A stretch of 33,435 nt of DNA from Phycisphaerae bacterium. Lineage in GTDB: Bacteria; Planctomycetota; Phycisphaerae; Sedimentisphaerales; Anaerobacaceae. The notes under the pieces were generated by a model, which made no database searches, was not told where the DNA came from, and saw only the letters and a list, made by a program, of their open reading frames with translations. Positions 1,559 through 27,664 of this stretch are shown one piece after another. Within the stretch, counting starts at the first letter, position 1. The number at the start of each line of letters is the position of its first letter. Position numbers and translations under genes: made by a program. The DNA lies in the NCBI GenBank assembly GCA_017993835.1, contig JAGOLX010000061.1, forward strand, positions 1-33,435, written 5' to 3'.

Positions 1559-1618
1559 GAAGCACAAGATTCATCGTGAGTACCAGCGCCGCGAGGTTCT
1601 GTCAAGCTTCGCCGCGGG

Positions 1619-3073
1619 TTACTCGTAGTCCCACTTGAGAATCCACGGGTCTTTCGTTTGTTTCTGAAATACCCTGAGCTTCGCTTTCATCGCATCGAGC
1701 CGATCCCTGTACCGGGGCTCGGCCGCGAGGTTCCGCACCTCGTGCGGATCGGCTTCCAGGTCGTACAGCTCGAATCTTGGCCGATGGAGGTATGCATCGA
1801 CGGGGCGCTTCCCGTAGAGCTCGCTGCCGCTGCGAGTCGTTCTCTGCCAGGTCGCGGATTCCCACAGGTCGCTTGCGAAGGGGTAGTCCAGGCCGTGAGC
1901 GAGATTCCAAATCAGCTTGAATCGACGCTCGCGGACCACGCGCATCGGGTAGTACATCGTGATCTCGTGGAACGTGTGCGAGGCATAGGTTGTGTCCCAA
2001 GCCTCGACGTGCCTGTCTTCGAGCACCGGCCGGAACGATCGGCCGTGAAACTCGTAGTCGGCCGGCGTAGCGCCCGCGAAGTCCAGGATCGTGGGGGTCA
2101 GATCCGCCCAATTTACCAAGGCGTCGCACGTGATGCCTCTGTTCCGCTGCCAGGGTGTACGGACGATGCACGGGAGATTGATGCCCGGCTCGTAGACCGT
2201 CGTCTTCGCGCCGGGGAAGGCGATCCCGTTGTCGGAGATGTAGATCAGGACGGTATTTTCGTACTGGCCGGCGCTCTTGAGATGCTCGACGAGCCGGCCG
2301 ATCCCCTGGTCGATCCGCGAGACGGCCTGACAATACTGTGCCAGTTCCGCCCGGCACTCAGGCGTATCGGGCAGGAAGTCTGGAACGACGACGTCCTGGG
2401 GATCGTACCTGATCTCTGTGACGCCGGGGTAGCCCTGCTCGCGATTGCCGAACCGGTCCGGCTGATAGGGCAGTTCCGTCGCCTTGCCTCCGCCACGGTG
2501 CGGATCGCTCGTGCAGAAGTACAGGAAGAAAGGTCTTTCGTCTTGAGCAGCCAGGACCGGCCGGCAGTGGTCCGCCATCTGCACGGCGTTGCGATCGTTG
2601 CCCTGGAGCACCGTGTCGAACTGGTACACGTGGTCCGGAGCGACGTGGTACTTGCCGATTCTCGCTGTGCGGTACTGCGCCTGCGTCAACAGCACAGGCA
2701 GACTCCGCACGGTATCGAAACTGCTGAAATGGTGGTATGCGTGCTGGTGACCGTATTGGCCGTTGTGGTGATTGTAGAGTCCGCTGAGAATCACGGACCG
2801 GCTCGCGCTGCAACTGGCGGTGGTGCAGAAGGCGTTCGTGAATCGCACGCCCTCGCCGGCCAGCTTGTCCAGGTTCGGCGTCTGGATGACGGGATGCCCA
2901 TAGCAGCCCAGGTCGCCCCGGCCGTGGTCGTCGGTGACGATCAGAACAATGTTCGGGCGACCTTTCTGGTTTCCCAGACTCCTCTTCGTCACGACAGAGA
3001 CTGTGGCGAAGGCCGACACTCCTGCCGCGCAAGTCCCTACGAAAGCCCTTCGGGTCATGGATGGATGTGTCAT
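1619..3073 (-). CDS. Tat-exported sulfatase, N-sulfoglucosamine sulfohydrolase-like (S1 family)
   Basis: This gene encodes a 484-residue type I sulfatase of the alkaline phosphatase superfamily, predicted to be exported. The N-terminus MTHPSMTRRAFVG has a twin-arginine motif followed by a hydrophobic stretch to about residue 28. The metal-binding TDD lies at 47-49. The sulfatase signature CSASR starts at Cys88, the residue converted to formylglycine by a maturase; position 3 is Ala where Pro is usual, which the consensus allows. Many blocks match human heparan N-sulfatase (SGSH) as recalled: HHFSSFDTVRSLP, FFLYFCTSDPHR, SDNGIAFPGAK, DLTPTILDFAG and a C-terminal TKDPW. An N- or O-sulfated glucosamine glycan is therefore the likely substrate. 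The ATG at 3073 has GGAG 5 bases upstream. The gene starts 31 bases after the hydrolase stop, as in an operon. Confidence 0.9.
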   Translation of the reverse strand: MTHPSMTRRAFVGTCAAGVSAFATVSVVTKRSLGNQKGRPNIVLIVTDDHGRGDLGCYGHPVIQTPNLDKLAGEGVRFTNAFCTTASCSASRSVILSGLYNHHNGQYGHQHAYHHFSSFDTVRSLPVLLTQAQYRTARIGKYHVAPDHVYQFDTVLQGNDRNAVQMADHCRPVLAAQDERPFFLYFCTSDPHRGGGKATELPYQPDRFGNREQGYPGVTEIRYDPQDVVVPDFLPDTPECRAELAQYCQAVSRIDQGIGRLVEHLKSAGQYENTVLIYISDNGIAFPGAKTTVYEPGINLPCIVRTPWQRNRGITCDALVNWADLTPTILDFAGATPADYEFHGRSFRPVLEDRHVEAWDTTYASHTFHEITMYYPMRVVRERRFKLIWNLAHGLDYPFASDLWESATWQRTTRSGSELYGKRPVDAYLHRPRFELYDLEADPHEVRNLAAEPRYRDRLDAMKAKLRVFQKQTKDPWILKWDYE

Positions 3074-3104
3074 ATCGAGGCTCCAATTCTGTCCATCACT
3101 TCGC

Positions 3105-4373
3105 CTAGCTCTGGCGGTGAGCCGTCGGCGTGTAGAGTCGGCTCACGCCGGGTTGCTTCCATCTTGCCAGGACACTTCGTCCGGGGATCGTCATACCCTC
3201 GTTCCGACCGGCTTCCGTCGAGTAGTTCGCGATCAACTCCACCCTGTCGTCGAAGGTGGTTCGCTGCAGGAGTCGGTCTTTGCTCAACCAGGCGAAGTCC
3301 GTCATGCGCGCGAACCCGAGCTCTCGATGGAGCGGCGAGAAGAACTCGTAGTGTTTCTTCATGACCGCGCCGTGCTTGTCGAATTCGTCGAGGTGCATGT
3401 GGTACATGGGCACAGCCATGTAGAGCACTTCGGTCAGCGCGACGGTCTCGACTTCCTCCCATCCATCGGTGCACAGTCGCAATCGATCGAATCCGGCCTC
3501 GTGGAATCGTTCCAGCATGTCGAGGGAAACGCCATCGCCCCAGAGATAAACGTGGGCGGCGCCCAGGAGCCGCTCGACCTTGGGGATCTGCTCCCTCTTG
3601 TCTCGCATGGACACGAACTGACCGTGCTCGACCAGCCAGCGCCGGAACCGCTGTGCCGGCAAGACGGGTGAACGATTCTCACCCAGCGAAATGACGAATC
3701 CGTACTCCTTCGGCTCCTGGAAGCGGGTGAACTCGTGCGTGAAGGTAGCGCGCACCTCGCCTGCTTTGCGGACAAAACGAATGGTGTTGTTGTAGGGACA
3801 AGTGGCGATGTAGGTCAGGAGGAACTGGCCGCAATCGAGCCCCCAGAACGGCATGCTGAGACTCGCCAGGGTGTCCCATTCGCCCCGCGAGACCAGGTAG
3901 TCGATCCAACGCGCTTCGTCGAGAGGGATGTAGGCTCCCTCGGCGCAGGGCCAGATGAGGGCCTTGACCTGTCCCCCCAATCGCACGGTGGGCCAGGTAA
4001 ACGCGCCCTCGCCATTCGACTGAATCCGCATGTGCAGATCATTCGCGTCCAGGCGGACTGCGATGGCGATATGCTCGTCTCGCAGACTCCAACTCGCCCA
4101 GTCACTGCTTCTCGCCAGTTGGCTGACCGGCCCCAGATCGCTCTGGCCAGCGGACAGTTCCACGGGCTCTCGCCCTGTCTCGGCGCCGACGATCCGAAGA
4201 GTCTGCGGCCAGATCGTCACCCGCCACGCGGTGTTCGTGAGTTCGATACGATCCGGCGGACCGGCCGCCATCGTAACCGCGACTGCACAGAGGGCCAGTG
4301 ACGTCGCGGCGAGACCCGCCGACGGTTGTATCAAGCTTCCAGCGTTCCTTCGGAATGAGAAAGGCAGTCCCAC
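3105..4373 (-). CDS. Secreted glycoside hydrolase-like protein, possibly internally shortened
   Basis: This 422-residue protein is probably exported: after VGLPFSFRRNAG a hydrophobic segment ends near AVTMAAG. The GTG at 4373 is preferred because AGGGAGG lies about 7 bases upstream. The longer reading from ATG 4463 would translate the hairpin at 4424-4457. The N-terminal part is beta-rich (TWPTVRLGGQVKALIWPCAEGAYIPL), followed by a motif typical of (beta/alpha)8 glycosidases: HVYLWGDG, then DMLERFHEAGFDRLRLCTDGWEE. The C-terminal part (FARMTDFAWLSKDRLLQRTTFDD, then ELIANYS) resembles the end of GH101-like/DUF5696-type enzymes as I remember them. The two halves are joined abruptly near residue 300, where a long catalytic section would be expected. 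No clear pair of catalytic acids is visible. It is either a naturally short family or a deletion product. The gene lies between two polysaccharide-degrading genes. Confidence 0.6.
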   Translation of the reverse strand: MGLPFSFRRNAGSLIQPSAGLAATSLALCAVAVTMAAGPPDRIELTNTAWRVTIWPQTLRIVGAETGREPVELSAGQSDLGPVSQLARSSDWASWSLRDEHIAIAVRLDANDLHMRIQSNGEGAFTWPTVRLGGQVKALIWPCAEGAYIPLDEARWIDYLVSRGEWDTLASLSMPFWGLDCGQFLLTYIATCPYNNTIRFVRKAGEVRATFTHEFTRFQEPKEYGFVISLGENRSPVLPAQRFRRWLVEHGQFVSMRDKREQIPKVERLLGAAHVYLWGDGVSLDMLERFHEAGFDRLRLCTDGWEEVETVALTEVLYMAVPMYHMHLDEFDKHGAVMKKHYEFFSPLHRELGFARMTDFAWLSKDRLLQRTTFDDRVELIANYSTEAGRNEGMTIPGRSVLARWKQPGVSRLYTPTAHRQS

Positions 4374-4423
4374 GGTCGTTCCCTCCCTTTCGCGTGTCCG
4401 TCGTCGGTCCTCCGGCTGGAAAG

Positions 4424-4457
4424 CCGCGGGACAAGGCGAGTGGGCCTTGTCCCGCGG
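4424..4457 (-). terminator. Perfect 14-bp hairpin after the GH2 fusion gene
   Basis: CCGCGGGACAAGGC at 4424-4437 pairs perfectly with GCCTTGTCCCGCGG at 4444-4457 around a 6-base loop. The hairpin begins 13 bases after the stop of the 4471-8808 gene. It lacks a clear T-run on the minus strand (CTTTCC follows), so it may be an attenuator or an mRNA 3'-end stabiliser rather than a strong terminator. It leaves room for the downstream gene to start at GTG 4373. Confidence 0.65.
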
Positions 4458-4470
4458 AATCATGACGAGG

Positions 4471-8808
<4,338 letters not shown>

Positions 8809-8906
8809 GACAAGACCTCCCATGACACAGTACCTCCGACTTCCGGCAGTACGTTGCCCGGACGGGTCTGTAGTGACGCCGTAAGGCGTTCTCTTCACAT
8901 CGAAGA

Positions 8907-14533: not shown

Positions 14534-16576
14534 TCAAGGTTCGAACGGCAGTAGACGCTGCACATGGATGAAGTTCCAGATCACCTCGCCTTGGGTGAAC
14601 GGATACAGGCCATGATTCGGCATCGGCATTGGATTGGCGATGGGCTCTCCCCCGCGAATTGTCTCAAAGCCGTCGAAGTCACTGTGGATGCCGGTCTCGA
14701 TCATCACCTGCAAGGTGATCGACGGGCTCATTGCCAAGAACATGAAGCTGTGGATCAAAGCCGAGTAGAATTCACTCGGAATGATCGTCACAGTATAGGG
14801 TGCTCGCCAGCACTTCTGATCCCCATCCAAGAACGTGCTCCAATGCTGGTGCTCGATCGTGACGGGTTTGGCGTCTGGGGCCGGGACCGGCTGATTCACC
14901 TGGAACGTGTAGCCGTCATACGTGCCGTCGAAGTAGAACCAGTTGATGTTGTCCTGTTCGGAAGGGTCGTCCTGGACAACGCGAATATCGTGGAAGTGGG
15001 GGCATCCCGCGTACATGGGCACCGGGTCTCGCTCGACATAGCGCACCCAAGGAAATGATAAACGGGTCCGGACCTCGCCCATGAGGATGTGCGTCTCGGC
15101 GTGCGTGGCCATGCGCACATCATGGCTTTCCATCCATAGTCTGCTGCCGGAATGCAGAACGTACTCATTGCCCGTCAGGGGGAGGTACCCACTGATGGGA
15201 TAGATATAGTGAATCGTGCCACGCCATACATCGCAACTGGCCAGAAGATATTGGATTTTCTTGATCAATCCCTGCTCCAAGGCCGGATCCCCGTTGAGCA
15301 GGATAACCTGCTCAGCGGCATGCATCATCTCTCGCACCCTGCCACAGTCTCCTTCGCTGAGTAGTCGGGCGGCGATTTCGTTGACGATTTCGACGGTGAG
15401 GTTCAGGAGAGAGTCATACAGGTCGTTGTGCCCGAGCCGACCTGCCAGTCCGGCTACGAAGAGCAGGTGCATTTTGCTTGTCTCGTTGCGATTGAGGGCT
15501 GCCTCTTCCCGTGCGATTTGAGCCATCTGTTCCAGAATGCTGCGAACTGCCGGATCTGCGCTTGGGTCGGACGGCTTGCCGGTAGCTGCATCGTCTTCGA
15601 GCTTACGGAGCCGATCCTCCAATGCCTTGTACAGCGATTTGTATGGCCCGTCGGGCGTCTCACCACCCGACACCCCCAGAACCTGAGACCGCGGTCCCGC
15701 AGTGTGCGACGCGAAAGAATCAGACACCGATCTATAGGGCGGATCACCAGGGATGAACAGACCGTACAACGGCCAGAGCCTTGGCAGCGTACACGTGATC
15801 TCACTGTTTCCAGCCACCTTGCAGGCGCCCTCGATGACCATCCACTGTCCGGAATTCCGATCGAACCACGCCAGCTTCGGCAATTCCGGCGTCTCCATAC
15901 CCTGAACACCGACCGTGAATGTACGATCTTCGGCCGATGGGACGGCCTGCCCGCTGGCATCGAATGCCTGCAGCCCAAAGGCGCGGACCAGGTATAGGTC
16001 CTCTGTCGGTCGCAGCGGCGCGGACAGTGGCCCGACGTCCAACACGTTGACATCGGCCAGACCCACATAGGCCGGCGTCTCGGACAGATCTTCGGCCGCA
16101 ACGATCACGGTCAGAACGATGCCCTCATTGGCGTCGGCTACGAGTTCCACCGACTCGCCGGGCTCGACCTTTCCCAAGGCTTGAAAGGGCGTCATCCAAG
16201 CCAGGAACAGGGCAACCTCTTGGTAGCTCATGTCGAGCCTGGCGTAACCCGTCGTGTAGCCCCAGGCATCGAGTTGAATCCAGCCGGCGGGGCTCGGCAC
16301 GGCGCTGCCGCTGTACACACCATTCAGATCGGTCAGATCGTCCTCGCCCACCAGCACGCAACTCAGCGGCTGACCCTCGCTATTCAAAACAAGGCCCATC
16401 ACTTCCGGTAGAGCAAGATCATCTTCCCCTGCAAACCCGACCGTCGGGGTATCCCTAAGCCACTGTTGAGCTACACGGAGGAGATCCACGTTAGCCGGAG
16501 GATTCGCTCCGACGGTTGTTCCGCAGATCGCCAGCACGCCCCACATCGCTATGCGCATACTCTGTGCCCGGCTCAT
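14534..16576 (-). CDS. Secreted protein of unknown function with carboxypeptidase-regulatory-like domain
   Basis: I do not recognise this 680-residue protein. From ATG 16576 it starts MSRAQSMRIAMWGVLAICG, a signal peptide ending near TTVGA. Residues about 45-125 (VMGLVLNSEGQPLSCVLV, DAWGYTTGYARL) look like a carboxypeptidase-regulatory or Ig-like beta-sandwich with a self-contained hydrophobic pattern. A second beta-rich part follows (TFTVGVQGMETPELPKLAWFD). About residues 290-450 are helical and charged. The C-terminal third has several His and Trp residues (ESHDVRMATHAETHILMG, GCPHFHDIRV, TIEHQHWSTF), which might bind metal. AAAGG lies 10 bases before the start. The frame extends to 16765, but upstream residues do not form a signal peptide. 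It sits alone between the Tat-protein gene and the pst operon. A surface or periplasmic role is inferred from the signal peptide only. Confidence 0.75.
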   Translation of the reverse strand: MSRAQSMRIAMWGVLAICGTTVGANPPANVDLLRVAQQWLRDTPTVGFAGEDDLALPEVMGLVLNSEGQPLSCVLVGEDDLTDLNGVYSGSAVPSPAGWIQLDAWGYTTGYARLDMSYQEVALFLAWMTPFQALGKVEPGESVELVADANEGIVLTVIVAAEDLSETPAYVGLADVNVLDVGPLSAPLRPTEDLYLVRAFGLQAFDASGQAVPSAEDRTFTVGVQGMETPELPKLAWFDRNSGQWMVIEGACKVAGNSEITCTLPRLWPLYGLFIPGDPPYRSVSDSFASHTAGPRSQVLGVSGGETPDGPYKSLYKALEDRLRKLEDDAATGKPSDPSADPAVRSILEQMAQIAREEAALNRNETSKMHLLFVAGLAGRLGHNDLYDSLLNLTVEIVNEIAARLLSEGDCGRVREMMHAAEQVILLNGDPALEQGLIKKIQYLLASCDVWRGTIHYIYPISGYLPLTGNEYVLHSGSRLWMESHDVRMATHAETHILMGEVRTRLSFPWVRYVERDPVPMYAGCPHFHDIRVVQDDPSEQDNINWFYFDGTYDGYTFQVNQPVPAPDAKPVTIEHQHWSTFLDGDQKCWRAPYTVTIIPSEFYSALIHSFMFLAMSPSITLQVMIETGIHSDFDGFETIRGGEPIANPMPMPNHGLYPFTQGEVIWNFIHVQRLLPFEP

Positions 16577-16816
16577 AACCGTCTGCCTTTCTCTGATCTG
16601 TTCCGGTTGCAGAAACCGATGCCCTCGTCCATACCTGCCCCCTCGTTCGCCTCCGCAGGGTATACCATTGACGATCGCGCAAGATCTTCCAGTCGACTGG
16701 TATGGCTCGAAACTCGTCAAGGACACGAGAAGATATCCAATTCCAGGATACCCGGAACGCCGCAAAGATGCAATAGATTCGCCGGCTGCCGCCTCCCCCG
16801 AAGGCGACCGCGCCTG

Positions 16817-18640
16817 TCACAATTCTTCCCAGCGGATTCCGAGCTTTCTCGCCGCGTAGGCGAGGGGTTTGAGGTGGTCGCCGTAGGCCATCATCCAGTG
16901 CGAGTCGCGGACCTCGCTGATGAGCTTGCGCCAGTCGCCTTGGATCTCGACGTCCTGCTGGGACCGGCAGATCTCGTAGGCGGGATTACCGTGGACGATG
17001 CCGGTGAAGCCGAGCCAACGGCCGGTGCTGTACTCGGGATCGATGAACGTCACCTGTTGGCCGACGGGGATCTCGACCTTGGGGGCGGCGCCGTATTCCG
17101 ATTCGTAGTGCGTCATGATCCGGGTCGGCTCGTAGCGACTGCCGTCGAACCGACGCGGTGAGCTGCAATGGGCACACGTCACGATCCCGTTGTGCGGGAA
17201 GGTCGAGTTGTGCATGAAGACGGGCAGGCCCGAGACATAGTGCAGCAGGATACCGGCGGGAATGATGACGAAATCGGATTCGCAGAAGGCGATCAGACCC
17301 TCGTCGCCGAGCAGGCCGAGCGTCAGGCACGGCGTTGTCTGCGAGATCGGCATGATCGTGCTCATGCAGTTGCGGATCGTGAAGGCCGACGCGTCGTGTT
17401 CGCGCAGGAGGTCCTTGAAGACGCCGTAGAGCATGAAGGCGTTGACGAAGAACTGGTTCGTGGTGGCCAGGGTCGTACCGGGCAAGGCAAGGTAGGCTTC
17501 GGCCCACCGCTTGGCGGCGGCCATTCGCTCGCGGTCGGCCAGAGCGGCCTGAATGCGAGGAGTCACCGCTTCGTAGGACACGTCGATGATCTCGAAGCGG
17601 TACTTCTCGCGGGCCACGTCCGGCGCCTCAGGCGAGTACTTGCCCCAGGGACCGCCCAGCGCGACGATGCGAGTGCCCACGAAGTTCTTCAGGCCGTACA
17701 AGCCCCGCAGCCGCCAGAGCAGTTCGTTCACGTCGTCGACCACCACGTCCTCGACGTGGACGGGGCCGTGATCGAGGCAGGCCGGATCGGAGCGAGAAGG
17801 TGAGAAGTTGAGAAGGTCGGAAGGTCGGACAGTCTTGCTTTCTTCCACGCTTACCTTCTCACCTTCCAACCTTCTTACCTTCTGCTCTTCCCGGCCCGAT
17901 TCGGCTTTTTCCGATCCTCGTCCAGGCTCGGGCCGGCCGGTTTGGAGGTAGCGGGTGCTCAGGGCCTCGAACCAGTAGTAGGCCGGGCCGGAGCTGCGCC
18001 GAGTGAAGATGATCGTGTCGCGATCCTTCTTCGGAGCGAAGCAGGCCTTGAGCAGTTCGCCCGAGCCTGATGCGGCGTAGACGATGACCGCGTCGTACTC
18101 GTTCTCGTGGACCTTCGCAGCCTCCGCAGGCGACTTGACCACCACGACAGGCAGAGCCTTCACCGGGAAGGGCGCCCGCGCGCACAGGGTCGCCAGTTCG
18201 TTGGAGATATTCTTGGCCTCGGTCCTCGCGGCCTCGTCGCTCTGGACACTGCCCCAGGATTTCCATGAAGTGGCGCGTTGGGGCTCCGCGACACGGTACA
18301 TCAGGATGGGCTGGACTACGAGGGTCCGGCCTGTGCAGAGCATGGGCCGCTTCGGGTCCCAGCCTTCCGGATCGATGGCTGCGGAGGAGGATGCGTTCAG
18401 GCCAAATACGCCGGCGGCGAGACCCGCGCCGGTCAGGCCGAGGAATTCTCTTCGGCCGACTGGAAAAAGGCAGGTCGGGCCTACTTTGAGAGGGAAGAAC
18501 CTCCTCTTCGATTTTTCCCTCTCAAACCCTGGTTGCGTGCCGAGAGTCTCGTCGTGTCCATTCTTCACCGAAATCGAACCAGGAGATTTCGGTGAGGAAT
18601 ATAGGCCCGACCTGCCTTTTTCCAATCCGTCGTTGGGCAT
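16817..18640 (-). CDS. Tat-signal protein with sugar-isomerase-like (L-fucose/arabinose isomerase type) fold, carrying two in-frame repeats
   Basis: This 607-residue protein has a Tat motif GRREFLGLTGAGLAAGVFG, but at residue 62 or so rather than near the start. The preceding 58 residues translate a palindromic element (18461-18628). The following region (PVVVVKSPAEAAKVHENEYDAVIVYAASGSGE) and the C-terminal half (NCMSTIMPISQTTPCLTLGLLGDEGLIAFCESD, then GLPVFMHNSTFPHNG) resemble the L-fucose/L-arabinose isomerase fold. Substrate and activity are unknown. Residues about 240-285 (GRGSEKAESGREEQK and on) are a second repeat-derived, charged insertion. ATG 18640 has AGGAG 7 bases upstream and a good promoter at 18670-18698, so translation through the element is likely. 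No start codon lies between the element and the twin arginines. Orientation matches the next gene, 240 bases away. Confidence 0.75.
   Translation of the reverse strand: MPNDGLEKGRSGLYSSPKSPGSISVKNGHDETLGTQPGFEREKSKRRFFPLKVGPTCLFPVGRREFLGLTGAGLAAGVFGLNASSSAAIDPEGWDPKRPMLCTGRTLVVQPILMYRVAEPQRATSWKSWGSVQSDEAARTEAKNISNELATLCARAPFPVKALPVVVVKSPAEAAKVHENEYDAVIVYAASGSGELLKACFAPKKDRDTIIFTRRSSGPAYYWFEALSTRYLQTGRPEPGRGSEKAESGREEQKVRRLEGEKVSVEESKTVRPSDLLNFSPSRSDPACLDHGPVHVEDVVVDDVNELLWRLRGLYGLKNFVGTRIVALGGPWGKYSPEAPDVAREKYRFEIIDVSYEAVTPRIQAALADRERMAAAKRWAEAYLALPGTTLATTNQFFVNAFMLYGVFKDLLREHDASAFTIRNCMSTIMPISQTTPCLTLGLLGDEGLIAFCESDFVIIPAGILLHYVSGLPVFMHNSTFPHNGIVTCAHCSSPRRFDGSRYEPTRIMTHYESEYGAAPKVEIPVGQQVTFIDPEYSTGRWLGFTGIVHGNPAYEICRSQQDVEIQGDWRKLISEVRDSHWMMAYGDHLKPLAYAARKLGIRWEEL
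17793..17920. repeat. In-frame repeat in the middle of the Tat-protein gene
   Basis: GAAGGTGAGAAG-type words near 17799-17825 are inverted as CTTACCTTCTCACCTTCC-type words near 17850-17880. The right end, 17893-17917, matches the 25-base end of the pstS-type repeat (13597-13621, 18604-18628) at about 20 of 25 positions, including GGCCCGA and CTTTTTCC. The element is read as a charged Glu/Lys/Arg-rich insertion. Confidence 0.6.
18461..18628. repeat. Palindromic element with 23-bp perfect inverted ends inside the Tat-protein N-terminus
   Basis: Bases 18461-18483 and 18602-18624 are perfect inverted repeats of 23 bp (each holding GGAAAAAGGCAGGTCGGG or its complement). Two further inner palindromes are present: TTTGAGAGGGAA against TTCCCTCTCAAA, and ACCGAAATC against GATTTCGGT. 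The right-hand 60 bases are the copy shared with pstS. The structure is that of a non-autonomous, MITE-like element; no transposase lies in the window. Confidence 0.8.
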
Positions 18641-18669
18641 AGTCTTCTCCTGCAAGAACAGACAGGAGG

Positions 18670-18762: not shown

Positions 18763-20961
18763 TCACGCTTCGCGCACGATGCTCTCCAGGATCTTCTGTC
18801 CCTGCTCGTCGGCGCCGACGGACGCCATCGCCGGCTCCCGCTCATGGCGCAAAGACTCGCAGGTTGAGAGCAAATCGTCCACGGCCAGGTCTGCGATGGC
18901 GACGCCAAGTTGCTTGGCGGCCGATTCGATCCACGTGACCATCGCGATCACGACGGTGGGATCGAATTCGTAACCGGCGGAGTCCTTCAGCATGGCGAGC
19001 GTCTCCCCGATCGGACGCGAAGTGTGGTAAGCCCGGTTCGAGGTCAGAGCGTCGAAGGTGTCCGCGACCGCGATGATGCGGGCGCCCAGCGGAATGGCGG
19101 TCCGGGCCAGTCCATCGGGATAGCCCTGCCCGTTCCATTTCTCGTGATGGTGGCGGACGATGGAGGTCTCGGTTTCCAGGAAGCTCATTCTTTCGAGGAT
19201 GCGCACCGCGACCAGCGGATGCTGCTCGACGAGCCAGCGTTCGTGGCCGGTGAGGTGATCGGGTTTGAACAGGACCGCGTCGGGCACGCCGATCTTGCCG
19301 ATGTCGTGGATCATCGCGGATCGCTGGATCAGGTCCACGTACTTGGGTCCCAGTTCCATCGTGCGTGCGATCTCGACGGAGTAGGCCGTGACGTTCTCGG
19401 AATGCTTGCGGGCATAGGCGTCCTTGGCTTCGAGGGCCTGGACGAGGCTCCAGATGCTTTCCATGAACACCTTTTCCGCCTTCTCCGACAGGCCCATGAT
19501 TCGTCGTTGGAGCCTCTTGACCCGCTCGATCTCGATGTCGCTGGCGTTGAGCAGGCGGGCCATTTCCTCGTTCCAGAGCTTGACGCAGTTGCGTCCGGCG
19601 TTCTTGGCCTCGTAGAGGGCGACGTCGGCCCGGCGCATCACATCGTCGGGAGATTCATCTGCCTCCAGGATGCACTCGGCGATCCCGCAACTGATGGACA
19701 GACCCATTCCCTGGTCGAAACGGATCTCGCGCACGCGGGCCCGCACGCGCTCCAGCAGGACGGTGGCCTCCGCGGCCTTTGTCTCGGGCAGCAGCAGGAC
19801 GAACTCGTCTCCGCCGTAGCGGGTCAGGACGTCGGGTCCTCTCTTCTCCCGCTTGACGCATTCGGCCAGCTTGCGGATCGCGTCATCGCCTGTGACGTGT
19901 CCCAGGGCGTCGTTGATCATCTTGAAGTGATCCAGATCGAGGATCGCCACGGAGAACGACCGCTTGTATCGCTTGGCCCGGTCGCATTCTTCGAGCAGCT
20001 TCTCTTCCAGGAGTTTCCTGGAACCGACCCCGGTCAGTGCGTCGGTCAGGGAGGTGAGTCTCGCCTGCTGATATCGGGTGGCGTTGGTCAGGTGGGCGAC
20101 GAGGATCTCGCGAGTCAGCCCGGCCTTATACTGGGTCAGTTCCTCATTCGAGAGGCTCGACTCGGGCAGGCCGCACATGCACAGGTAACCGGAAAGACGC
20201 TTCTCCTTGCCGGTGGCAGCCTCGGGCAAGCCCACGATGTCCAAAGGCAGGACCATGCGCGGGGCCTTGCCCCCGCACTTGCTGCACTCGAGGGGGATTT
20301 CCGCATGGCAGTAGGTGGGCGAGGATTCGCGAGTCTCAACGTCCTGCGGTCCCATGAGGTGCCCGCCCACGCAGGGGCAGCGGTTGGAACTGATCAATTC
20401 GGGCTCCCGGCTGCGATCGCCCGCCGGATACAGGCACAAAACCGAATTGCGGGCCTCGAAGAGCTTCGGCGCCTCCGCGGCAACGATCTCCGCGGCCTCG
20501 TTCAAGTCGATGCTCTTGAGACATTTCGAGAGCATAGCCACCTCTTCGGCGGCTGTCCGGTCTTCGACGAGCTGTTGGGAGATGATGTCCCGGGCCGAGA
20601 GGATGCCGACGACCTTGCCGCTGTTGATCAGGGGCAAGTGGCGGATCCGATTGTCCATCATGATTCGCCTGGCCTCGCTGGTGGTGATCCCCGGGGAGCA
20701 CGAGACGACCTGGGCGGTCATGATCTGACTGACGAGGATCTGGGCTCCGGAGTCGGCTCGCACGGCCACGTGGCGGGCGATGTCCCGCTCGGTGACCAGT
20801 CCGACGAAGTGGCCCTGATCGTCGTTGACGATCAGGCAGCCCACGTTGTGAGAGAGCATCTTGGCCGCGGCGTCCTTGACGCTGTCGCTGCAGCAAATCG
20901 TGATGATCCTGGCCTGGTTGGGCGAGGCATCCGACAAGATGGGGCGCGCTGGCTCAGACAT
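18763..20961 (-). CDS. CBS - Cys-rich GAF-like - GGDEF - HD-GYP cyclic-di-GMP protein
   Basis: This 732-residue cytoplasmic protein combines c-di-GMP synthesis and breakdown modules. Residues about 18-135 are two CBS domains (GLVTERDIARHVAVRAD; HLPLINSGKVVGILSARDI), which usually sense adenine nucleotides. Residues about 150-300 look GAF-like and carry CPC (195-197), Cys218, CSKC (226-229) and CMC (261-263), suggesting bound zinc or an iron-sulfur centre. The GGDEF domain (about 305-465) has an intact GGDEF at 383-387 and an inhibitory RGPD I-site at 374-377, five residues before it, so it should be an active, product-inhibited diguanylate cyclase. The HD-GYP domain (about 500-685) has HDIGKIG at 552 and HHEKWNGQGYP at 604-614, the phosphodiesterase residues. 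No membrane segment is visible. AAGGGG lies about 9 bases before ATG 20961. It diverges from the sigma factor gene. Confidence 0.93.
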   Translation of the reverse strand: MSEPARPILSDASPNQARIITICCSDSVKDAAAKMLSHNVGCLIVNDDQGHFVGLVTERDIARHVAVRADSGAQILVSQIMTAQVVSCSPGITTSEARRIMMDNRIRHLPLINSGKVVGILSARDIISQQLVEDRTAAEEVAMLSKCLKSIDLNEAAEIVAAEAPKLFEARNSVLCLYPAGDRSREPELISSNRCPCVGGHLMGPQDVETRESSPTYCHAEIPLECSKCGGKAPRMVLPLDIVGLPEAATGKEKRLSGYLCMCGLPESSLSNEELTQYKAGLTREILVAHLTNATRYQQARLTSLTDALTGVGSRKLLEEKLLEECDRAKRYKRSFSVAILDLDHFKMINDALGHVTGDDAIRKLAECVKREKRGPDVLTRYGGDEFVLLLPETKAAEATVLLERVRARVREIRFDQGMGLSISCGIAECILEADESPDDVMRRADVALYEAKNAGRNCVKLWNEEMARLLNASDIEIERVKRLQRRIMGLSEKAEKVFMESIWSLVQALEAKDAYARKHSENVTAYSVEIARTMELGPKYVDLIQRSAMIHDIGKIGVPDAVLFKPDHLTGHERWLVEQHPLVAVRILERMSFLETETSIVRHHHEKWNGQGYPDGLARTAIPLGARIIAVADTFDALTSNRAYHTSRPIGETLAMLKDSAGYEFDPTVVIAMVTWIESAAKQLGVAIADLAVDDLLSTCESLRHEREPAMASVGADEQGQKILESIVREA

Positions 20962-21302
20962 CGGTCAATCCCCTTCTCTGTGTTTTCTGCTGTCCATGGT
21001 TTGCGGTCCTTCAGGGTATGTGTATCGACGCGCCAACCCCCCGGCTTTAGGTGGGAGTTCAACGCGAGGATATGGTATAATCTGGGGACCGGGCGAGCCA
21101 AGATGGCGGCGGGTGCGTAGTATGGGAACAGATGCCACGGGTTCCTGGCGGTTTCTGCAAAGCCAGTGAAGGCCGACGGTTATGACCATTCGAGTGCGGT
21201 CGCGACGTTTGTAGCGTCTGTGCGGTCGGGCCGGTGAAAAATCGCACGAGGTGACGGAAAAACGCGTTACGAAATGCCTCGGATGCGGCACCTATTTGCA
21301 CA
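20962..21302. other. Divergent 341-base intergenic region between the c-di-GMP gene and the sigma factor gene
   Basis: This gap contains an extended -10 promoter facing the sigma gene (21073-21081), leaving a leader of about 215 bases. The leader has short G/C-rich imperfect dyads (for example GCGACGTTTGTAGCGTC near 21209) but no recognised riboswitch. A GTG-initiated frame beginning at 21251 includes a CLGCG motif but runs out of frame into the sigma gene, and I do not call it. No clear promoter for the minus-strand gene was found. Confidence 0.5.
21073..21081 (+). promoter_or_regulatory. Extended -10 promoter upstream of the sigma factor gene
   Basis: TGGTATAAT is a perfect TGnTATAAT extended -10 element. 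No good -35 element lies 17 bases upstream (GGGAGT), which extended -10 promoters tolerate. Transcription would begin near 21088, about 215 bases before the sigma ATG. Confidence 0.55.
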
Positions 21303-23195
21303 ATGATGACCATGGATCCAACAACCCAGTCCGCTGTGGACAGACAAGTGAACGAGATCGAGCTGATAGAACAGGCTCAACGGGGAGATCGGCAGAGCCT
21401 CAACAACCTCGCTCAGGTCGCCAGGGAGCGGCTCAGGACCTATGTCTATCGCCTTACTCAGAAGGACGATCTGACGCAGGAAATTGTTCAGGAGAGCCTT
21501 TTAGAGATGTGCAAGATACTTGGCAAGCTGCAGAAGACCGACCGGTTTTGGCCGTGGCTGTACGGAATCGCGACCAATAAGCTGCACCGGCACTATCGGA
21601 CGGAGAAGGCTATGAGACACGCAGCGGCTTCGGAGGAGCGACGTCGGGGCACCGTGCAAGAACGTGAGGAAGGATTCGAAGGGCTCGTCGGCGACGAGCT
21701 CAAGAACATCGTCGCCGGCGCCATGCAGAAGCTGCGGACTCGCCATAAGGCGGTCCTCGTCATGCGTTGTTATGACGGCATGGCCTACAGCGAAATCGCC
21801 GAATCGATGGGTTGCAGCGAGTTCAGCACACGGATGCTCTTCGTCCGAGCCAAGAAGGCGCTCCAGAAGGAACTGCTCAGCCATGGATTCAGCAGGGGAT
21901 CGCTCCTGGCGGCCTTGATCGTGTTCGGCAAGATGACCGCGCCGAGCAAAGTGGCGGCGGCCCAGCTCACCGTCCCGGCGGCGGCCCTGAAGGCGGGTCT
22001 GGCGGCCAGTGTCGCGGGTCTGGCCAGCAGCACCACGGGGATCGTGACCGTCGCGGCGGTCGGCGCGCTGACCGTCGGGACAGTTGTGACGACCTCCGGA
22101 CCTGCCAGGCAGGTTGGCTTGGGCGGCAATCCGCTGGCATCGGGCGGCCGGATCGTCAGCCCCTATGCGACCGCCGCGAGTGCCCACGAGCAGTACTGGT
22201 ACTACTTCCCGGAGGGCCCGGAAGGCTCGCTGATCCTGCGAGCCCAGTCCCGCAACGGTGCGTCCACCGTGCTCCAGAACGGGGAAGCCAACTATACCTA
22301 CCAGGGCAACACGGTTGCCCTCAATAACTACTGCATGCTGCTCGATGATCTGAGTGTGTTCAAGCTTCCGACCGACAGCCCGGAGATGCGAGGCTTTCTC
22401 GCGCAGGTGGAGGGAATCCGCAACGACATCCAGCCGGTGTCCGCCAAGAAAGGGCGTGGCCTGCTGGCGGTGGTCGAGCGGAAGACCGACAACGCGGCTG
22501 TCGATGCGCCGTGGACGATCTCCAGCTCCAACGTCCTCGACACCGACTACTTCCAGAGCGACTGGCCGACGGATGCACGGATCGTGGACAATCGCGACGC
22601 GATGCACCGGCGCGGCTGGACCTACTTCCGTATTCAAGGCACGGTCGGCGGACAGAAGGTTGCCGGCGCGGGGAGGATGCCGTTCGTTTACGCGGCGAGC
22701 AAAGAGCATCGTCCCTGGCTGCGTCTGACCGTCGGCGATCTCGTCGTCGTCGATAGCGGCTCCGCAGCCACGCTGGCGAATGCTCAGGGCGAGTCCTCGG
22801 CCAAGTACCGCCAGGGGAGCTTCTTCCGCGGTTTGTCGCGTCCCTGGATGGGTCTGCACACGGTCGATACGGTCCGTCGAGATGCGGCTGCCCAGCGGGC
22901 CCGGTTCGAGACCCGACTGACGGCCGAGGGTCGCCAGGCACAGGTCATTGTGACTTCGGACAAGACAGAGCTTGCGTATACCATCGACATCGAGGCGGAC
23001 CTCGTCCGCCGGATCGATTTCACCGTGGCGGACGTCCCCGCCGGTTCGCTCGAATTCGAGTACCTTTCCGACGTGAACGTCAGCCGCAGCGAGTTTGCCG
23101 TCCCGTTGTCCCGACCGCCGCAAGCGACATTCCAGGAGGGTGAAGGCATCCTCTGGCTCGTCGCACTGGCGAACGGGACTCTGGGAGGCCAATAA
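21303..23195 (+). CDS. ECF-type sigma factor with membrane segment and large C-terminal extracytoplasmic domain
   Basis: This gene encodes a 630-residue fusion. Residues about 15-190 are a sigma-70 family ECF factor: region 2 (LRTYVYRLTQKDDLTQEIVQESLLEM, then RFWPWLYGIATNKLHRHYR) and region 4 (KLRTRHKAVLVMRCYDGMAYSEIAESMGCSE, then RMLFVRAKKALQKEL). Residues about 200-265 hold one or two Ala/Gly/Val-rich hydrophobic stretches that could span the membrane. Residues about 270-630 are a domain I do not recognise (QYWYYFPEGPEGSLILRAQ; GWTYFRIQGTVGGQKVAGAGRMPFVYAA), likely outside the membrane. C-terminally extended ECF factors are known in planctomycetes. No separate anti-sigma gene is adjacent, so the fused part may control sigma activity. 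Three ATGs (21303, 21306, 21312) are possible starts and none has a clear ribosome-binding site. The coding strand is convincing throughout. Confidence 0.88.
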   Translation: MMTMDPTTQSAVDRQVNEIELIEQAQRGDRQSLNNLAQVARERLRTYVYRLTQKDDLTQEIVQESLLEMCKILGKLQKTDRFWPWLYGIATNKLHRHYRTEKAMRHAAASEERRRGTVQEREEGFEGLVGDELKNIVAGAMQKLRTRHKAVLVMRCYDGMAYSEIAESMGCSEFSTRMLFVRAKKALQKELLSHGFSRGSLLAALIVFGKMTAPSKVAAAQLTVPAAALKAGLAASVAGLASSTTGIVTVAAVGALTVGTVVTTSGPARQVGLGGNPLASGGRIVSPYATAASAHEQYWYYFPEGPEGSLILRAQSRNGASTVLQNGEANYTYQGNTVALNNYCMLLDDLSVFKLPTDSPEMRGFLAQVEGIRNDIQPVSAKKGRGLLAVVERKTDNAAVDAPWTISSSNVLDTDYFQSDWPTDARIVDNRDAMHRRGWTYFRIQGTVGGQKVAGAGRMPFVYAASKEHRPWLRLTVGDLVVVDSGSAATLANAQGESSAKYRQGSFFRGLSRPWMGLHTVDTVRRDAAAQRARFETRLTAEGRQAQVIVTSDKTELAYTIDIEADLVRRIDFTVADVPAGSLEFEYLSDVNVSRSEFAVPLSRPPQATFQEGEGILWLVALANGTLGGQ

Positions 23196-23518
23196 CCGAG
23201 CCGACCATCCGGCCAGGTGAGCAGAGGGTGGTTGTGAGTACGGATGAAGTATGCCCGCACAGGGGGGTGTGGCGGGAGGGTCAGGGTGGTCTGTGCAGCA
23301 AACATAACGAATGAGAACGCTTCGCCGAGGATTGGCTGTGTTCGTGGGATCGCGAACACGTCCGTGAGGTTGTCGTATCTTCGTCCGACCGAACCGGAGG
23401 AATGGGCCGACAGGGAGGAGGCCGTCGCAGAGTTTTCGGACGCTCTGCCCGCAAACGACAGGGAGGTCGTCATACGTCCGATAGGAAGGTCGGTTGAGAC
23501 GGAGATACCAAGAAAGAA

Positions 23519-23598
23519 GGCCCCGGGGCTGTCATGCTATCCTCGGGTCGGCCCACACGAAGCGTCGCGTGGGCGGTCCCGAGCCCCGGGGCCTTTAT
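23519..23598 (+). terminator. Large GC-rich hairpin, probable (bidirectional) terminator
   Basis: GGCCCCGGGGCT (23519-23530) pairs with AGCCCCGGGGCC (23582-23593), followed by TTTAT and preceded by an A-rich stretch. Inner CTCGGG/CCCGAG and CCCAC/GTGGG can pair as an extension or an alternative. Each outer arm is itself a CCCCGGGG palindrome. It lies 324 bases after the sigma stop, so an unnoticed transcript may end here. Confidence 0.6.
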
Positions 23599-23601
23599 CG
23601 G

Positions 23602-23712
23602 ATCGCGGGAACTTTGCCCTGCGATTCTGCTCTAACAAGCTTATTGGCAACTGAATAGTTGCTGGTTGCTTGGCGGCGGGTTTTTGGGTGGGCTCGTCCC
23701 ACCTAAGAACCC
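23602..23712 (+). ncRNA. Candidate structured leader RNA upstream of the beta-helix gene
   Basis: Three local hairpins follow one another. ATCGCGGG (23602-23609) pairs with CCC-T-GCGAT (23617-23625) with one bulge. GCAACT-GAAT-AGTTGC is perfect (23647-23662). GGGTT plus GGTGGG (23678-23692) pairs with CCCACC plus AACCC (23698-23712). This is a prediction by eye only; the elements could also be a mix of terminators and repeats. Confidence 0.35.
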
Positions 23713-23730
23713 AGTTTGACAGCGGTGTTC

Positions 23731-26310
23731 ATGAGTGATGTGACGACAATCAGATTGGTGCGAGTTGTTCTGCTGGCCCTGGTGCTGGCGTCGCCGGCCG
23801 GGGCGGATTGGCCGTTTAGTTATTCGGATGACTTTTCCTCGGACAAGGTGGAGTCCGGCGCCTATCTACATTCCCCGTTCTGGACCCTCGACACGACCCC
23901 GTTGGCGGAACCCTATTTGCAGTACTACGAACCGGGTGCCGACCGGGAGTTGCTGTTCATGGAGTGCAGGGACCAGCCGGCCCGGCTGGCCTATTGTCTG
24001 CCCCCGGCGACCTCGTCCACCCATGGGATCGTCACAGGCACCTTCACCGTGGATGTCTCTTTCCCCTGCAGTGCGACCGTGTCTCAGTATCCGACCGGGG
24101 GGGAACTGTCCTGCTCGACCTCGCCCGACGGGGTGACCTGGTCCGGCCCGATGTACTTGTGGGCCGGACGCAACACCATCCCCATCTCCTCGAATATGGG
24201 CAGGTGTTACGTCCTGCTCAGCGGCGGCCGGGCTACGATCGACAACATCCAGGTCTCCCTGTCGCAGTCCTCCGCGACGATCCGTGTCCCCCAGAACTAC
24301 AGCACGATTCAGCAGGCCATCAATGCCGCCCACTCGGGCGACGTCATCGAGGTGGCCGCAGGGACCTACTCGGGAGCGGGGAACTGGGACATCGATTTCC
24401 AGGGCAAGCGAATCACTGTCCGCAGTGCCGGCGGGGCCGCGTCCACGGTCATCGACTGCGGCTCTCCCACGTCCACGGGACGACGCGGATTCTACTTCCA
24501 CCAGGGCGAGACCGCAGATTCCATCCTCTCCGGCTTTACCATTCGAGGCGGGCGGGTCTACGGCGCGGACATCCCCGCCAATCCCCTCCAATGGACGCAG
24601 AGCGCCTCGCACCCCATCGGCGGCGGCATCTACTGCGAGTTCAGCAGTCCGACCATCGCCGGCTGCGTTATCGAGAACTGCGGCGCCGAACTCGGGGGCG
24701 GCATCGGCTGCGTCGGCGGCGACCCGACGATCATCAACTGCACGATCCAGGACTGTCTGGCCGGCGGGCTCGGCTCGGCCACCACGGGCGGCCGGGGCGC
24801 CGGAATCGCCCTCGTCGGCGAATCGAACGCCACGATCACCAATTCCGTGATCCGGGGCAACACCAACGCCTACTCCAGCAGTTGGGGCGCTGGTCTTTAT
24901 GTCCTGCACAGCTCTGCGGTCGTCTCCGGATGCACCTTCTCCGACAACCTCGCGCCCGGCTCGCTGCGAGGCGGCGGCGCCTACTGCGGCGGCCAAGGCT
25001 GCGATGTCATGTTCCGCAACTGCGTCTTTTCCGCCAACCAGGCGGATGCAGGCGCCGGAATCCTCGTCGAAGGCACCACCACGGCGCAGCCCTCGACGAC
25101 CACATCGAGCTGGCAATGTGCTGTCGCTGTTGTCAACTGCACGATTGCCCGGAACGAGCTGACCTATGCCTTGGGCAGTTCCGCCGCGGGCGGCGTCAAC
25201 TCCAGCGGCGCCAACATCACGATCTCCAACAGCATCATCTGGGGCAACGAGGGGACCGCCGTGACGATTGCCAATGCTTCGTCCACGTATCCGGTGACCT
25301 ATTCGGACGTCCAGGGCGGTTACTCCGGCACGGGCAACATCAACTCCGATCCGCTCTTTGCCTCCGCGTCGAGCTCGGACTATCACCTGAAATCGACCGG
25401 CGGACGCTACAATCCCGCTTCGGGCGCGTGGGTCAGCGACAGCACGTGCAGTCCCTGCCTCGACGCCGGCGATCCTTGGGATTCGGTCGAGTACGAGCCG
25501 CCGCTGAACGGCGAGCGGGTGAACATGGGTGTTTACGGCGGAACCGCCGAGGCCAGCAAGAGCCCCAAACGCACCGTCTACCACGTCAGCAAGAGCGGTC
25601 GCGACACGAACACCGGCGCGAGCCAGTCCAGCGCCTTCGCCACCATTGAGAGGGCGATCCAGGCCGCAGTCGATGGCGATGCCATCCTCGTCTGGCCGGG
25701 CCGGTACGAAGAGAGACTCTCGTTCGCAGGCAAGGCCATCACCATACAGAGTGCAGCGGACGCGGCCGTGATCGTGGCGCCCGATTACGCGTTTACGTTC
25801 TCCAAGGCGGAGGACGCCGGCAGCGTCTTGGCCAACTTCGTCATCACGGGCTGCGCGACCGCCGGCATCATCTGTGACGGCGCCTGCCCCACGCTGAGGA
25901 ACCTGACGATCGTGGACAATCAGTTCGGCATCGTCGCGTATCATGGCGCCAAGCCCAACATCGTCAATTGCATCGTGTGGGGCAATGAAGACGGACAACT
26001 GTTCGATTGCAGCGCGACCTACAGTTGCATCGAAGGCGTCACGGCGGGCAAGAAGACCGGGGTCATCAACAGCGATCCGCTGTTCGCGAATGCCGCCGGT
26101 GGAGACTACCATCTGCGTTCGCCGTACGGGCGCTATGTATCGAGCAGCGGCGCCTGGGCGACCGACGGCGCGATCAGTCCCTGCATCGACGCAGGCGATC
26201 CGTCCGACTCCTTCCGCAACGAGCGGGTGCCGAATGGCAATCGGATCAACATGGGCGCTTACGGCGGGACCCCCTGTGCAAGCCTCAGCAGCGGGCCCGT
26301 TTGTCCGTAG
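23731..26310 (+). CDS. Secreted right-handed beta-helix repeat protein
   Basis: This 859-residue exported protein starts MSDVTTIRLVRVVLLALVLASPAGA, a signal peptide. Residues about 27-185 form a beta-sandwich-like domain (YSDDFSSDKVESG, then GRATIDNIQVSLS) that may bind a ligand. Residues about 190-600 are a parallel beta-helix of the pectate-lyase/polymorphic outer-membrane type: NYSTIQQAINAAHSGDVIEVAAGTYSG, then many short N-C-T-I turns (GCVIENCGAELGGGIGC). A second, shorter helix runs from about 620 to the end. Both modules finish with the same sequence type: INSDPLFA, DYHLKS, CLDAGDP, then NMGVYGGT or NMGAYGGT. No catalytic acidic triad or anchor motif is obvious, so adhesion or glycan binding is as likely as lyase activity. 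A TTG at 23716 would add five residues; the ATG at 23731 is simpler. Confidence 0.88.
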   Translation: MSDVTTIRLVRVVLLALVLASPAGADWPFSYSDDFSSDKVESGAYLHSPFWTLDTTPLAEPYLQYYEPGADRELLFMECRDQPARLAYCLPPATSSTHGIVTGTFTVDVSFPCSATVSQYPTGGELSCSTSPDGVTWSGPMYLWAGRNTIPISSNMGRCYVLLSGGRATIDNIQVSLSQSSATIRVPQNYSTIQQAINAAHSGDVIEVAAGTYSGAGNWDIDFQGKRITVRSAGGAASTVIDCGSPTSTGRRGFYFHQGETADSILSGFTIRGGRVYGADIPANPLQWTQSASHPIGGGIYCEFSSPTIAGCVIENCGAELGGGIGCVGGDPTIINCTIQDCLAGGLGSATTGGRGAGIALVGESNATITNSVIRGNTNAYSSSWGAGLYVLHSSAVVSGCTFSDNLAPGSLRGGGAYCGGQGCDVMFRNCVFSANQADAGAGILVEGTTTAQPSTTTSSWQCAVAVVNCTIARNELTYALGSSAAGGVNSSGANITISNSIIWGNEGTAVTIANASSTYPVTYSDVQGGYSGTGNINSDPLFASASSSDYHLKSTGGRYNPASGAWVSDSTCSPCLDAGDPWDSVEYEPPLNGERVNMGVYGGTAEASKSPKRTVYHVSKSGRDTNTGASQSSAFATIERAIQAAVDGDAILVWPGRYEERLSFAGKAITIQSAADAAVIVAPDYAFTFSKAEDAGSVLANFVITGCATAGIICDGACPTLRNLTIVDNQFGIVAYHGAKPNIVNCIVWGNEDGQLFDCSATYSCIEGVTAGKKTGVINSDPLFANAAGGDYHLRSPYGRYVSSSGAWATDGAISPCIDAGDPSDSFRNERVPNGNRINMGAYGGTPCASLSSGPVCP

Positions 26311-26704: not shown

Positions 26705-27664
26705 TTGGGATCGGAGGATTCAGCTATCCGCACGAGATGCCAAACCATCTCGATCGGGGCACGTGGGGTGAAGAGCTGCGGTTGTGCGGACCGACGCGAC
26801 GCGAGCTCGCAGGGGGCGTTTACACTCATCGAACTGCTCGTCGTTATCGCCATCATCACGCTGTTGCTCGCCATCCTCGTTCCGGGACTGAACATGGTCC
26901 GGCGTCAGGCGACCGGAATGCTGGGAATGAGGAACCAGCGGGAGATCGCTTCCGGCGTCACCCTCTTTGCCTCCGAAAACGACGACCGCTTTCCCGACTC
27001 CATCGCGACGATTGGATACGAAGGCGAGTGGAGTTGGTATGATCCGACCGCCATCACGGGCAAACGCAAGCGGACTCCCCAGGTCCATCGTGCCATGAGC
27101 GCCTACCTTCGCGACTACATCGCGGACGGCAAGACCATGTACTGTCCCGGCGCGCCGCGCCCCTACACGTATGCTCAGGCGTCGTGGGAGGCCGGCGACG
27201 AGTGGGACAACCCGGACACGCCGGTGACCTACGACCCGGTCGACGGTACCTTCTGCTTCTATTGGAACTATGTCGGGTATCTGGGCGAGCCGCGGATGCT
27301 GTTCCGAGGCCCCAGTGGTCCCGCCGCAGGCGGCAGGCAGAGCCAGTTGCTGGTCACCGACTACTTTGGCTACGGACCCTGGCAGACGCCCGGAGCTTTC
27401 GCGAGCTGCGAGAAGCTGCCCGGCGGCGATGTCGTCGAGGAAACCTGGCTGGCGGCCGCCCTGTGGACGGCCGAGGGCGATCCCAATGAAGCCATGCCGG
27501 ATGTGAAGCTGCGAGCCGCCTACGTCGACGGCCACGTCTCGACCTACACGCCCGAAGAAACGGTCCCGCTGCGGGTCTCCCTGACCTCCGAGGGTGTCCC
27601 TCCCTATCCCGACGGCACAGGCAGTCGCGGCATCTTCTACATCCCCGAAGACGCCGTCAACTGA
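26705..27664 (+). CDS. Type II secretion/type IV pilin-like protein with N-terminal methylation motif
   Basis: This gene encodes a pseudopilin-like surface protein of the kind abundant in planctomycetes. The prepilin signature is GAFTLIELLVVIAIITLLLAILVPGL, with the +5 Glu and one membrane helix; the residue before the cleavage point is Ala rather than the usual Gly. The body (about 260 residues) has NQREIASGVTLFASENDDRFPDS and, near the end, LRAAYVDGHVSTYTP, the DGHV motif found in the DUF1559-like/H-X9-DG pseudopilins. The start is uncertain: TTG 26705 gives a 38-residue leader and GTG 26768 a more normal 17-residue one; an ATG at 26737 is out of frame. The promoter at 26597-26625 serves it alone. 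Its role (pilus, secretion or surface layer) cannot be told from sequence. Confidence 0.85.
   Translation: MGSEDSAIRTRCQTISIGARGVKSCGCADRRDASSQGAFTLIELLVVIAIITLLLAILVPGLNMVRRQATGMLGMRNQREIASGVTLFASENDDRFPDSIATIGYEGEWSWYDPTAITGKRKRTPQVHRAMSAYLRDYIADGKTMYCPGAPRPYTYAQASWEAGDEWDNPDTPVTYDPVDGTFCFYWNYVGYLGEPRMLFRGPSGPAAGGRQSQLLVTDYFGYGPWQTPGAFASCEKLPGGDVVEETWLAAALWTAEGDPNEAMPDVKLRAAYVDGHVSTYTPEETVPLRVSLTSEGVPPYPDGTGSRGIFYIPEDAVN

Follow-up and report, generated by a model that had tools for sequence, protein, structure and literature searches.

How is an ECF sigma factor held in check when no anti-sigma gene accompanies it? Planctomycetes encode numerous ECF sigma factors, many of them with no anti-sigma gene nearby, and how these are regulated is for the most part unexplained. 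One such sigma factor is encoded in the stretch of DNA analysed here (33,435 nt from a Phycisphaerae bacterium, hereafter the window). It had been predicted from the sequence alone to combine sigma regions 2 and 4, hydrophobic segments serving as a membrane anchor and about 360 residues of an unrecognised outer domain, which could sense a surface signal and hold the sigma part at the membrane until cut. The features of the locus, together with those of a related fusion in the same genome, are collected in Table 1.

Table 1. Features of the fused sigma factor locus and of a related sigma fusion (positions refer to the window unless a locus is named)
Feature	Position	Strand	Remarks
Candidate promoter GTTAC-N16-GGCAC(C)TA, A-tract before it	21266-21294	+	begins 37 nt before the ATG
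Fused ECF sigma factor gene	21303-23195	+	ATG start, 630 aa, ORF coordinates exact
Sigma region 2, residues 41-102	21423-21608	+	Pfam PF04542 (Sigma70_r2), 1.6e-7
Sigma region 4, residues 137-187	21711-21863	+	Pfam PF08281 (Sigma70_r4_2), 7.7e-9
Conserved linker after region 4, residues 195-243	21885-22031	+	motif G-K-x-S-L-L-x-A-L-x-x-F-G-K-M-T-A
Probable membrane span, residues 244-264	22032-22094	+	Kyte-Doolittle 1.80
Low-confidence tether, residues 265-295	22095-22187	+	pLDDT <50 in 232-293
N-terminal beta-rich part of the outer domain, residues 296-434	22188-22604	+	no good structural match by itself
LolA/RseB-like core (predicted), residues 435-612	22605-23138	+	Foldseek, VIA-align, invariant residues
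Strong hairpin between the sigma gene and its partner	23515-23600	+	fold of 23501-23610, -61.5 kcal/mol
Downstream partner, 864 aa right-handed beta-helix protein, signal-peptide-like N-terminus	23716-26310	+	Pfam Beta_helix 9.1e-23
Pseudopilin-like third gene	26705-27664	+	N_methyl motif
Sigma + beta-lactamase-like fusion	L195:1549-3360 (contig C31 of the same genome)	+	same sigma-linker clade
Stand-alone beta-lactamase-like homologue	L195:373-1434	-	divergent neighbour of the sigma fusion

Sigma domains, probable membrane span and topology

Both sigma regions were confirmed, since the Sigma70_r2 and Sigma70_r4_2 matches exceed the curated Pfam cut-offs. In addition, the sigma70-ECF superfamily model TIGR02937 scored 61.5 bits on the window protein against a cut-off of 42.9, and the PDB entries closest to it in sequence belong to ECF sigma factors (e.g., sigma-H and sigma-E). 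No match to region 3 was found in the protein with Pfam, and by the defining features of the group, i.e., regions 2 and 4 without regions 1.1 or 3, the window protein is an ECF (group 4) sigma factor, encoded by an open reading frame with an in-frame GC3 of 0.79. The predicted lack of a nearby anti-sigma gene also held, as scans of flanking window ORFs and of the beta-helix partner described below gave no anti-sigma domain.

The hydrophobic segments originally described after region 4 come down to one probable span, which includes the most hydrophobic 19-mer of the protein (residues 245-263, Kyte-Doolittle 1.80); the rest corresponds to a conserved and less hydrophobic linker, common to paralogues with other C-termini. 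A shorter hydrophobic stretch lies at residues ~199-209. Among the 67 full-length family members, the most hydrophobic stretch always falls within region 236-272 (67/67); this stretch is uncharged in 61 members and reaches a Kyte-Doolittle value of at least 1.6 in 54, the span of the other 13 remaining below 1.6. It is only moderately hydrophobic and rich in Ala, Gly and Thr. Its flanks carry charges in a positive-inside manner (mean K+R versus D+E over the 67 members of 6.3 versus 1.4 on the N-terminal side and 2.3 versus 2.7 on the C-terminal side), which fits a sigma part inside and a C-terminal domain outside.

The anchored, extracytoplasmic arrangement that had been proposed finds strong comparative evidence, but AlphaFold2 gives no helix at the span: residues 232-293 were modelled as a low-confidence coil with pLDDT <50 (~30 at the span itself). 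Strong C-terminal membrane helices (Kyte-Doolittle 2.4-3.4) were identified in 13 relatives of the same sigma-linker clade and, in another relative, the swapped-in C-terminal domain has an exported-looking homologue next to it, which together argue that the C-terminus lies outside. We consider that these relatives decide the topology better than the AlphaFold2 model of the span. Comparison across the family thus strongly suggests a topology with the sigma part inside, one span, and the C-terminal domain outside.

Predicted fold of the outer domain and the family that carries it

The outer domain proper is C-terminal and covers ~335 residues, slightly less than the 360 first estimated. At the sequence level it deserved to be called unrecognised, as no Pfam family matched it significantly in any of 27 members, those of LolA, LolB and RseB giving nothing up to E = 1, and no PDB match was found by sequence. 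Cupin_6 and DUF identities were considered and rejected, given that they relied on weak, single and insignificant Pfam matches. At the structural level, the label no longer applies, because the predicted fold resembles LolA and RseB. Indeed, the structure prediction (from 67 sequences) reached a pLDDT of 89.2 and a pTM of 0.90, and Foldseek returned 39 PDB matches with E <1e-3, all but one of them (38/39) LolA or RseB (best E 7.3e-6, probability 1.00), with LolA as the top structural match. VIA-align gave Z-scores of 8.9 for LolA (130 residues, rmsd 3.8 A), 7.5 for MucB, 7.2 for RseB, 6.9 for LppX and 6.5 for LolB. Note that the match remains moderate (target-normalised TM of 0.33-0.50 on LolA and RseB, identity of ~7-15%, all Z below 9), so that common descent with LolA/RseB is not demonstrated.

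The VIA alignments cover mostly model residues 145-322, i.e., ~435-612 of the window protein. This part coincides with the one kept by a short natural relative (L193, 437 aa), which matches profile positions 154-318 only and does not have the N-terminal part (296-434); the outer domain can thus be described as a LolA/RseB-like core with an N-terminal beta-rich addition. In the predicted model, the core resembles the LolA/RseB half-barrel with moderate similarity, and the invariant residues of the outer domain cluster in D-x-R-D and in R-P-W-x-G-L-H-x-x-D-x-x-R-R-D-A-A (513-529). The LolA/RseB fold is the acyl-binding half-barrel of sigma-E stress sensors. The sensory role originally assigned to the outer domain fits this RseB likeness; by analogy, the ligand might tentatively be sought among lipids, lipoproteins or amphiphilic envelope signals.

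The outer domain is present in 54 of 99 related genomes, and since most matches fall in open frames of ~550-670 aa, it is fused to a sigma factor as a rule; some of the clearly shorter frames are cut off by the edge of a contig or interrupted by a stop codon. Paralogues with the same outer domain, proposed initially as a check, do exist, with three copies in the window's genome and up to seven matches per genome in some relatives. A scan of named genomes gave 79 loci, essentially all in Planctomycetota, Phycisphaerae or Sedimentisphaerales bins, one being labelled WOR-3 (possibly a misplaced contig). In the class sample, the domain was found in 27 of 298 genomes, all from the window's order apart from two that belong to another family (f12), and in the phylum sample in 3 of 392, from the window's order only. 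The 67 full-length sequences align end to end and are 36-75% identical to the window protein; as the family loci come from related genomes, they are not independent. Judged from these alignments and scans, the full sigma-linker-span-outer-domain architecture is a conserved, lineage-specific family of Phycisphaerae/Sedimentisphaerales and one other family of the class.

The same sigma-linker clade also includes members with other C-termini. Some are sigma genes of 281-305 aa that have no outer domain at all and end in a strong membrane helix (L172-L183 and L185, the last with an open frame of 435 aa). A third type of ~440 aa (L184, L186-L189, L191, L192 and L194) carries another conserved C-terminal domain (HWIELGFDxPIxDGPGxDIxIxE...FELHxxRAR), of which Pfam detected nothing beyond the sigma part when four members were scanned. 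A 614 aa sigma factor of the clade, encoded in the same genome as the window, ends in a beta-lactamase-like domain (PF00144, 6.6e-23). The divergent neighbouring gene encodes a stand-alone homologue of this domain (42% identity, 314 aa aligned, E 1e-90), which has a hydrophobic, signal-peptide-like N-terminus. The catalytic serine motif looks lost in the fused domain. More distant ECF sigma factors of this genome are fused to multi-span membrane regions (413 and 491 aa; L126 and L133) or, in the case of L129 (426 aa), to a carboxypeptidase-regulatory-like domain.

The occurrence of unrelated outer domains within the clade suggests that the outer part is an exchangeable input. In a broader reading, to which we give even chances, the family would be modular, with one sigma-linker-anchor module and exchangeable outer sensors (LolA/RseB-like, beta-lactamase-like, other unnamed, or none), and the LolA/RseB-like copies would each govern a small operon with a gene for a secreted beta-helix protein and, in many cases, one for a pseudopilin, as a one-protein version of sigma-E/RseA/RseB multiplied within the genome.

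Gene neighbourhood and candidate promoter

The order sigma factor, beta-helix protein and pseudopilin is repeated in both paralogous clusters of the window's genome. On a larger scale, the next gene lies on the same strand in 66 of the 73 loci with enough downstream sequence and within 250 nt in 59, some of them overlapping. A signal-peptide-like start was found in 53 of these next genes, by a crude score that 44% of all ORFs in the loci also reach. Pfam searches on eight partners, the window's included, identified a right-handed beta-helix in seven, two of which are weak matches, and 20 of 43 loci have a pseudopilin motif downstream in the same orientation, versus 8 with one upstream on either strand. 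From this gene order, the sigma gene appears to be the first of an operon-like cluster that also encodes a secreted beta-helix protein and, in many loci, a pseudopilin. In the window, the beta-helix gene starts 520 nt past the sigma gene, behind a strong hairpin; this gap and the hairpin suggest that readthrough into the partner may be controlled there, the hairpin being possibly an attenuator, a terminator or a small repeat element.

Divergent to the sigma gene, a CBS-GGDEF-HD-GYP protein of the cyclic-di-GMP type is encoded at 18763-20961 (minus strand), and the same upstream neighbour is found in several close relatives. Further away on the minus strand, two long ORFs with no Pfam match (14534-16765 and 16817-18655; 743 and 612 aa) adjoin a phosphate-type ABC transporter set, and the run of genes at 1602-8898 encodes, besides a sulfatase and a GH129-like protein, a 1475 aa protein in which glycoside hydrolase family 2 is fused to a GtaA/DUF5127-type glutaminase-like module.

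Near the start codon, the candidate promoter GTTAC-N16-GGCAC is kept in same-genus orthologues, while the flanking upstream DNA has diverged. A generalised two-box motif was counted in 37 of 67 family upstream regions versus 3.4 in shuffles, a comparison that is descriptive since the pattern was generalised from the same sequences in which it was counted; 37 of its 38 occurrences lie 30-90 nt before the start. The boxes vary between family members, which could reflect differing sigma specificities. A second copy before the partner gene was found in only 2 of 65 loci, as expected for one transcript. The two-box motif suggests, with moderate confidence, that the sigma gene is autoregulated.

A genome-wide regulon based on the promoter motif was also considered and rejected, as the motif is not enriched (9 occurrences versus 16 in the control), which may mean that it is purely local or that a different element is involved. 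Only two other exact copies occur in the genome (G000). The one at C75:20520-20548 (L206:13521-13549) is followed after ~0.7 kb by an ORF that encodes 760 aa (L206:14218-16500), and the one at C111:59768-59796 (L207:3269-3297, minus strand) has no clear gene behind it.

Proposed mechanism, alternatives and known systems

Taking together the domain content, conservation, fold resemblance, operon-like order and promoter motif, all obtained by computation, we propose as reasonably probable a transmembrane, single-chain ECF sigma system with an RseB-like sensor in cis, released by proteolysis. The cytoplasmic sigma domain (regions 2 and 4) would be tethered by the linker and one span (~244-264), and the outer LolA/RseB-like half-barrel would probably bind a lipid, a lipoprotein or an amphiphilic envelope signal. 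Signal binding would then lead to a cut by a site-1 protease followed by an intramembrane site-2 protease, and the freed sigma part would transcribe its own operon from the GTTAC-N16-GGCAC-type promoter, yielding more sigma protein, the secreted beta-helix protein and the pseudopilin. One chain would in this way take on the parts of sigma-E, of RseA as the tether and of RseB as the sensor. Genes of the M50 (site-2-protease) type are present in the window's genome and also in 14 of 14 control genomes, such genes being near universal. In Pseudomonas, MucB has a fold in common with LolA and LolB, binds lipid signals and controls the proteolysis of the MucA anti-sigma factor (PMC7400510). Among fused, membrane-anchored ECF sigma factors, IutY is freed by proteolysis, and the same was proposed for SCO4117 and ECF48/52/53 (PMC8999054; PMC5826349). 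By analogy with these systems, we expect with moderate confidence that the sigma part is released through proteolysis.

Other readings of the same protein have to be weighed. That the C-terminal domain stays in the cytoplasm and acts on the sigma part through direct contacts within the chain, like the ECF41 or ECF56 proteins, with the hydrophobic stretch as a flexible or buried linker, seems quite improbable: the stretch is the most hydrophobic part of every member, relatives end in true membrane helices, the neighbouring homologue of a swapped-in domain starts like a signal peptide, and the matched folds (LolA, LolB, RseB, LppX and LprG) are mostly extracytoplasmic, even though the hydrophobicity of the span is moderate and AlphaFold2 returned a low-confidence coil instead of a helix. 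The same topology evidence would also serve for a domain that is outside and anchored but never cut, in which case the signal would alter how the tethered sigma is held or let it act at the membrane, for instance by monitoring the export of the beta-helix partner. The tight gene coupling to a secreted partner would suit such an arrangement, and no cleavage site was identified. However, IutY and, by inference, SCO4117 work via proteolytic removal of the extension (PMC8999054), and a permanent tether would be an obstacle for a sigma factor, which has to accompany RNA polymerase to the DNA; we regard this second reading as unlikely. Finally, the outer domain may be imagined as a tethered LolA-like carrier or chaperone for a lipoprotein or for the beta-helix partner, transcription control being secondary. 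LolA indeed tops the structural matches and the partner gene is adjacent, but LolA is a free shuttle, a sigma tether makes little sense for transport, and the unrelated outer domains of other clade members suggest an exchangeable input part, all of which make the carrier role highly improbable.

The preferred single-chain system released by proteolysis recalls sigma-E/RseA/RseB of E. coli and AlgU/MucA/MucB of P. aeruginosa, in which a membrane tether holds the ECF sigma factor, a LolA-fold outer sensor answers lipid signals and regulated proteolysis activates the system. In contrast to these three-protein systems, the window protein is one chain with no recognisable anti-sigma domain, and its outer domain has no sequence match to RseB; it would work like sigma-E/RseA/RseB while sharing no sequence families with them beyond the ECF sigma part. 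In the C-terminal core of the outer domain, a half-barrel like that of LolA, LolB, RseB/MucB, LppX and LprG is predicted, whereas the extra N-terminal beta region, the own invariant motif, the sigma fusion and the lack of recognisable sequence similarity distinguish the window protein from the LolA/LolB/RseB group.

Several fused ECF sigma factors are comparable in architecture. IutY (ECF243, Pseudomonas putida) has a fused C-terminal extension that is membrane-bound, as is probable here, and is removed by Prc and RseP, but it carries a fused anti-sigma factor for iron surface signalling with an outer-membrane receptor, and the window protein shows no such domain; a FecR-like domain, as in IutY/ECF243, gave no Pfam match up to E = 10 in the whole protein or up to E = 1 in 27 outer domains. 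SCO4117 (ECF52) and ECF48/ECF53 of Actinobacteria combine an ECF sigma factor, one or more spans and an extracytoplasmic domain in one protein, an arrangement that is probable for the window protein too, and there is evidence for positive autoregulation of SCO4117. In ECF48/52/53, however, the sigma part is separated from the span by a zinc-finger anti-sigma domain, and the outer parts are different (e.g., carbohydrate-binding). A fused zinc-finger anti-sigma domain (ZAS) was rejected here, as its motif is absent from residues 190-295 in 67 of 67 members and no Pfam zinc-finger match was found. ECF57 and related Planctomycete ECF sigma factors share the long C-terminal extension with our protein, but neither the WD40 repeats nor the proposed conserved cysteine pair of ECF57 occurs in it. 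Of such a pair (one cysteine each in regions 2 and 4), only C156 in region 4 is at least 90% conserved in the 67 sequences. A WD40-type extension was rejected as well, since there is no Pfam WD40 match and LolA/RseB half-barrels, not propellers, are predicted. By its domain and motif content, the window protein is not a member of ECF48/52/53, the IutY type or ECF57. In the literature searched, the scope of which did not extend to the main ECF classification papers, we found no account of a LolA/RseB-like domain joined to a sigma factor. Fused, anchored ECF sigma factors are already known, and their combination with a LolA/RseB-like outer domain appears to be new.

Altogether, the sensor of this sigma factor is apparently built in: its fold points to lipid or lipoprotein ligands, and the neighbouring genes point to an output made of a secreted beta-helix protein and pilin-like components. 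The formerly unnamed outer domain now has a predicted fold, a family and an operon-like context. If the proposed mechanism is true, a single chain with exchangeable sensors can do the work of an envelope-stress pathway of three proteins, and this family would provide a compact design for signalling from the cell surface to the genes.
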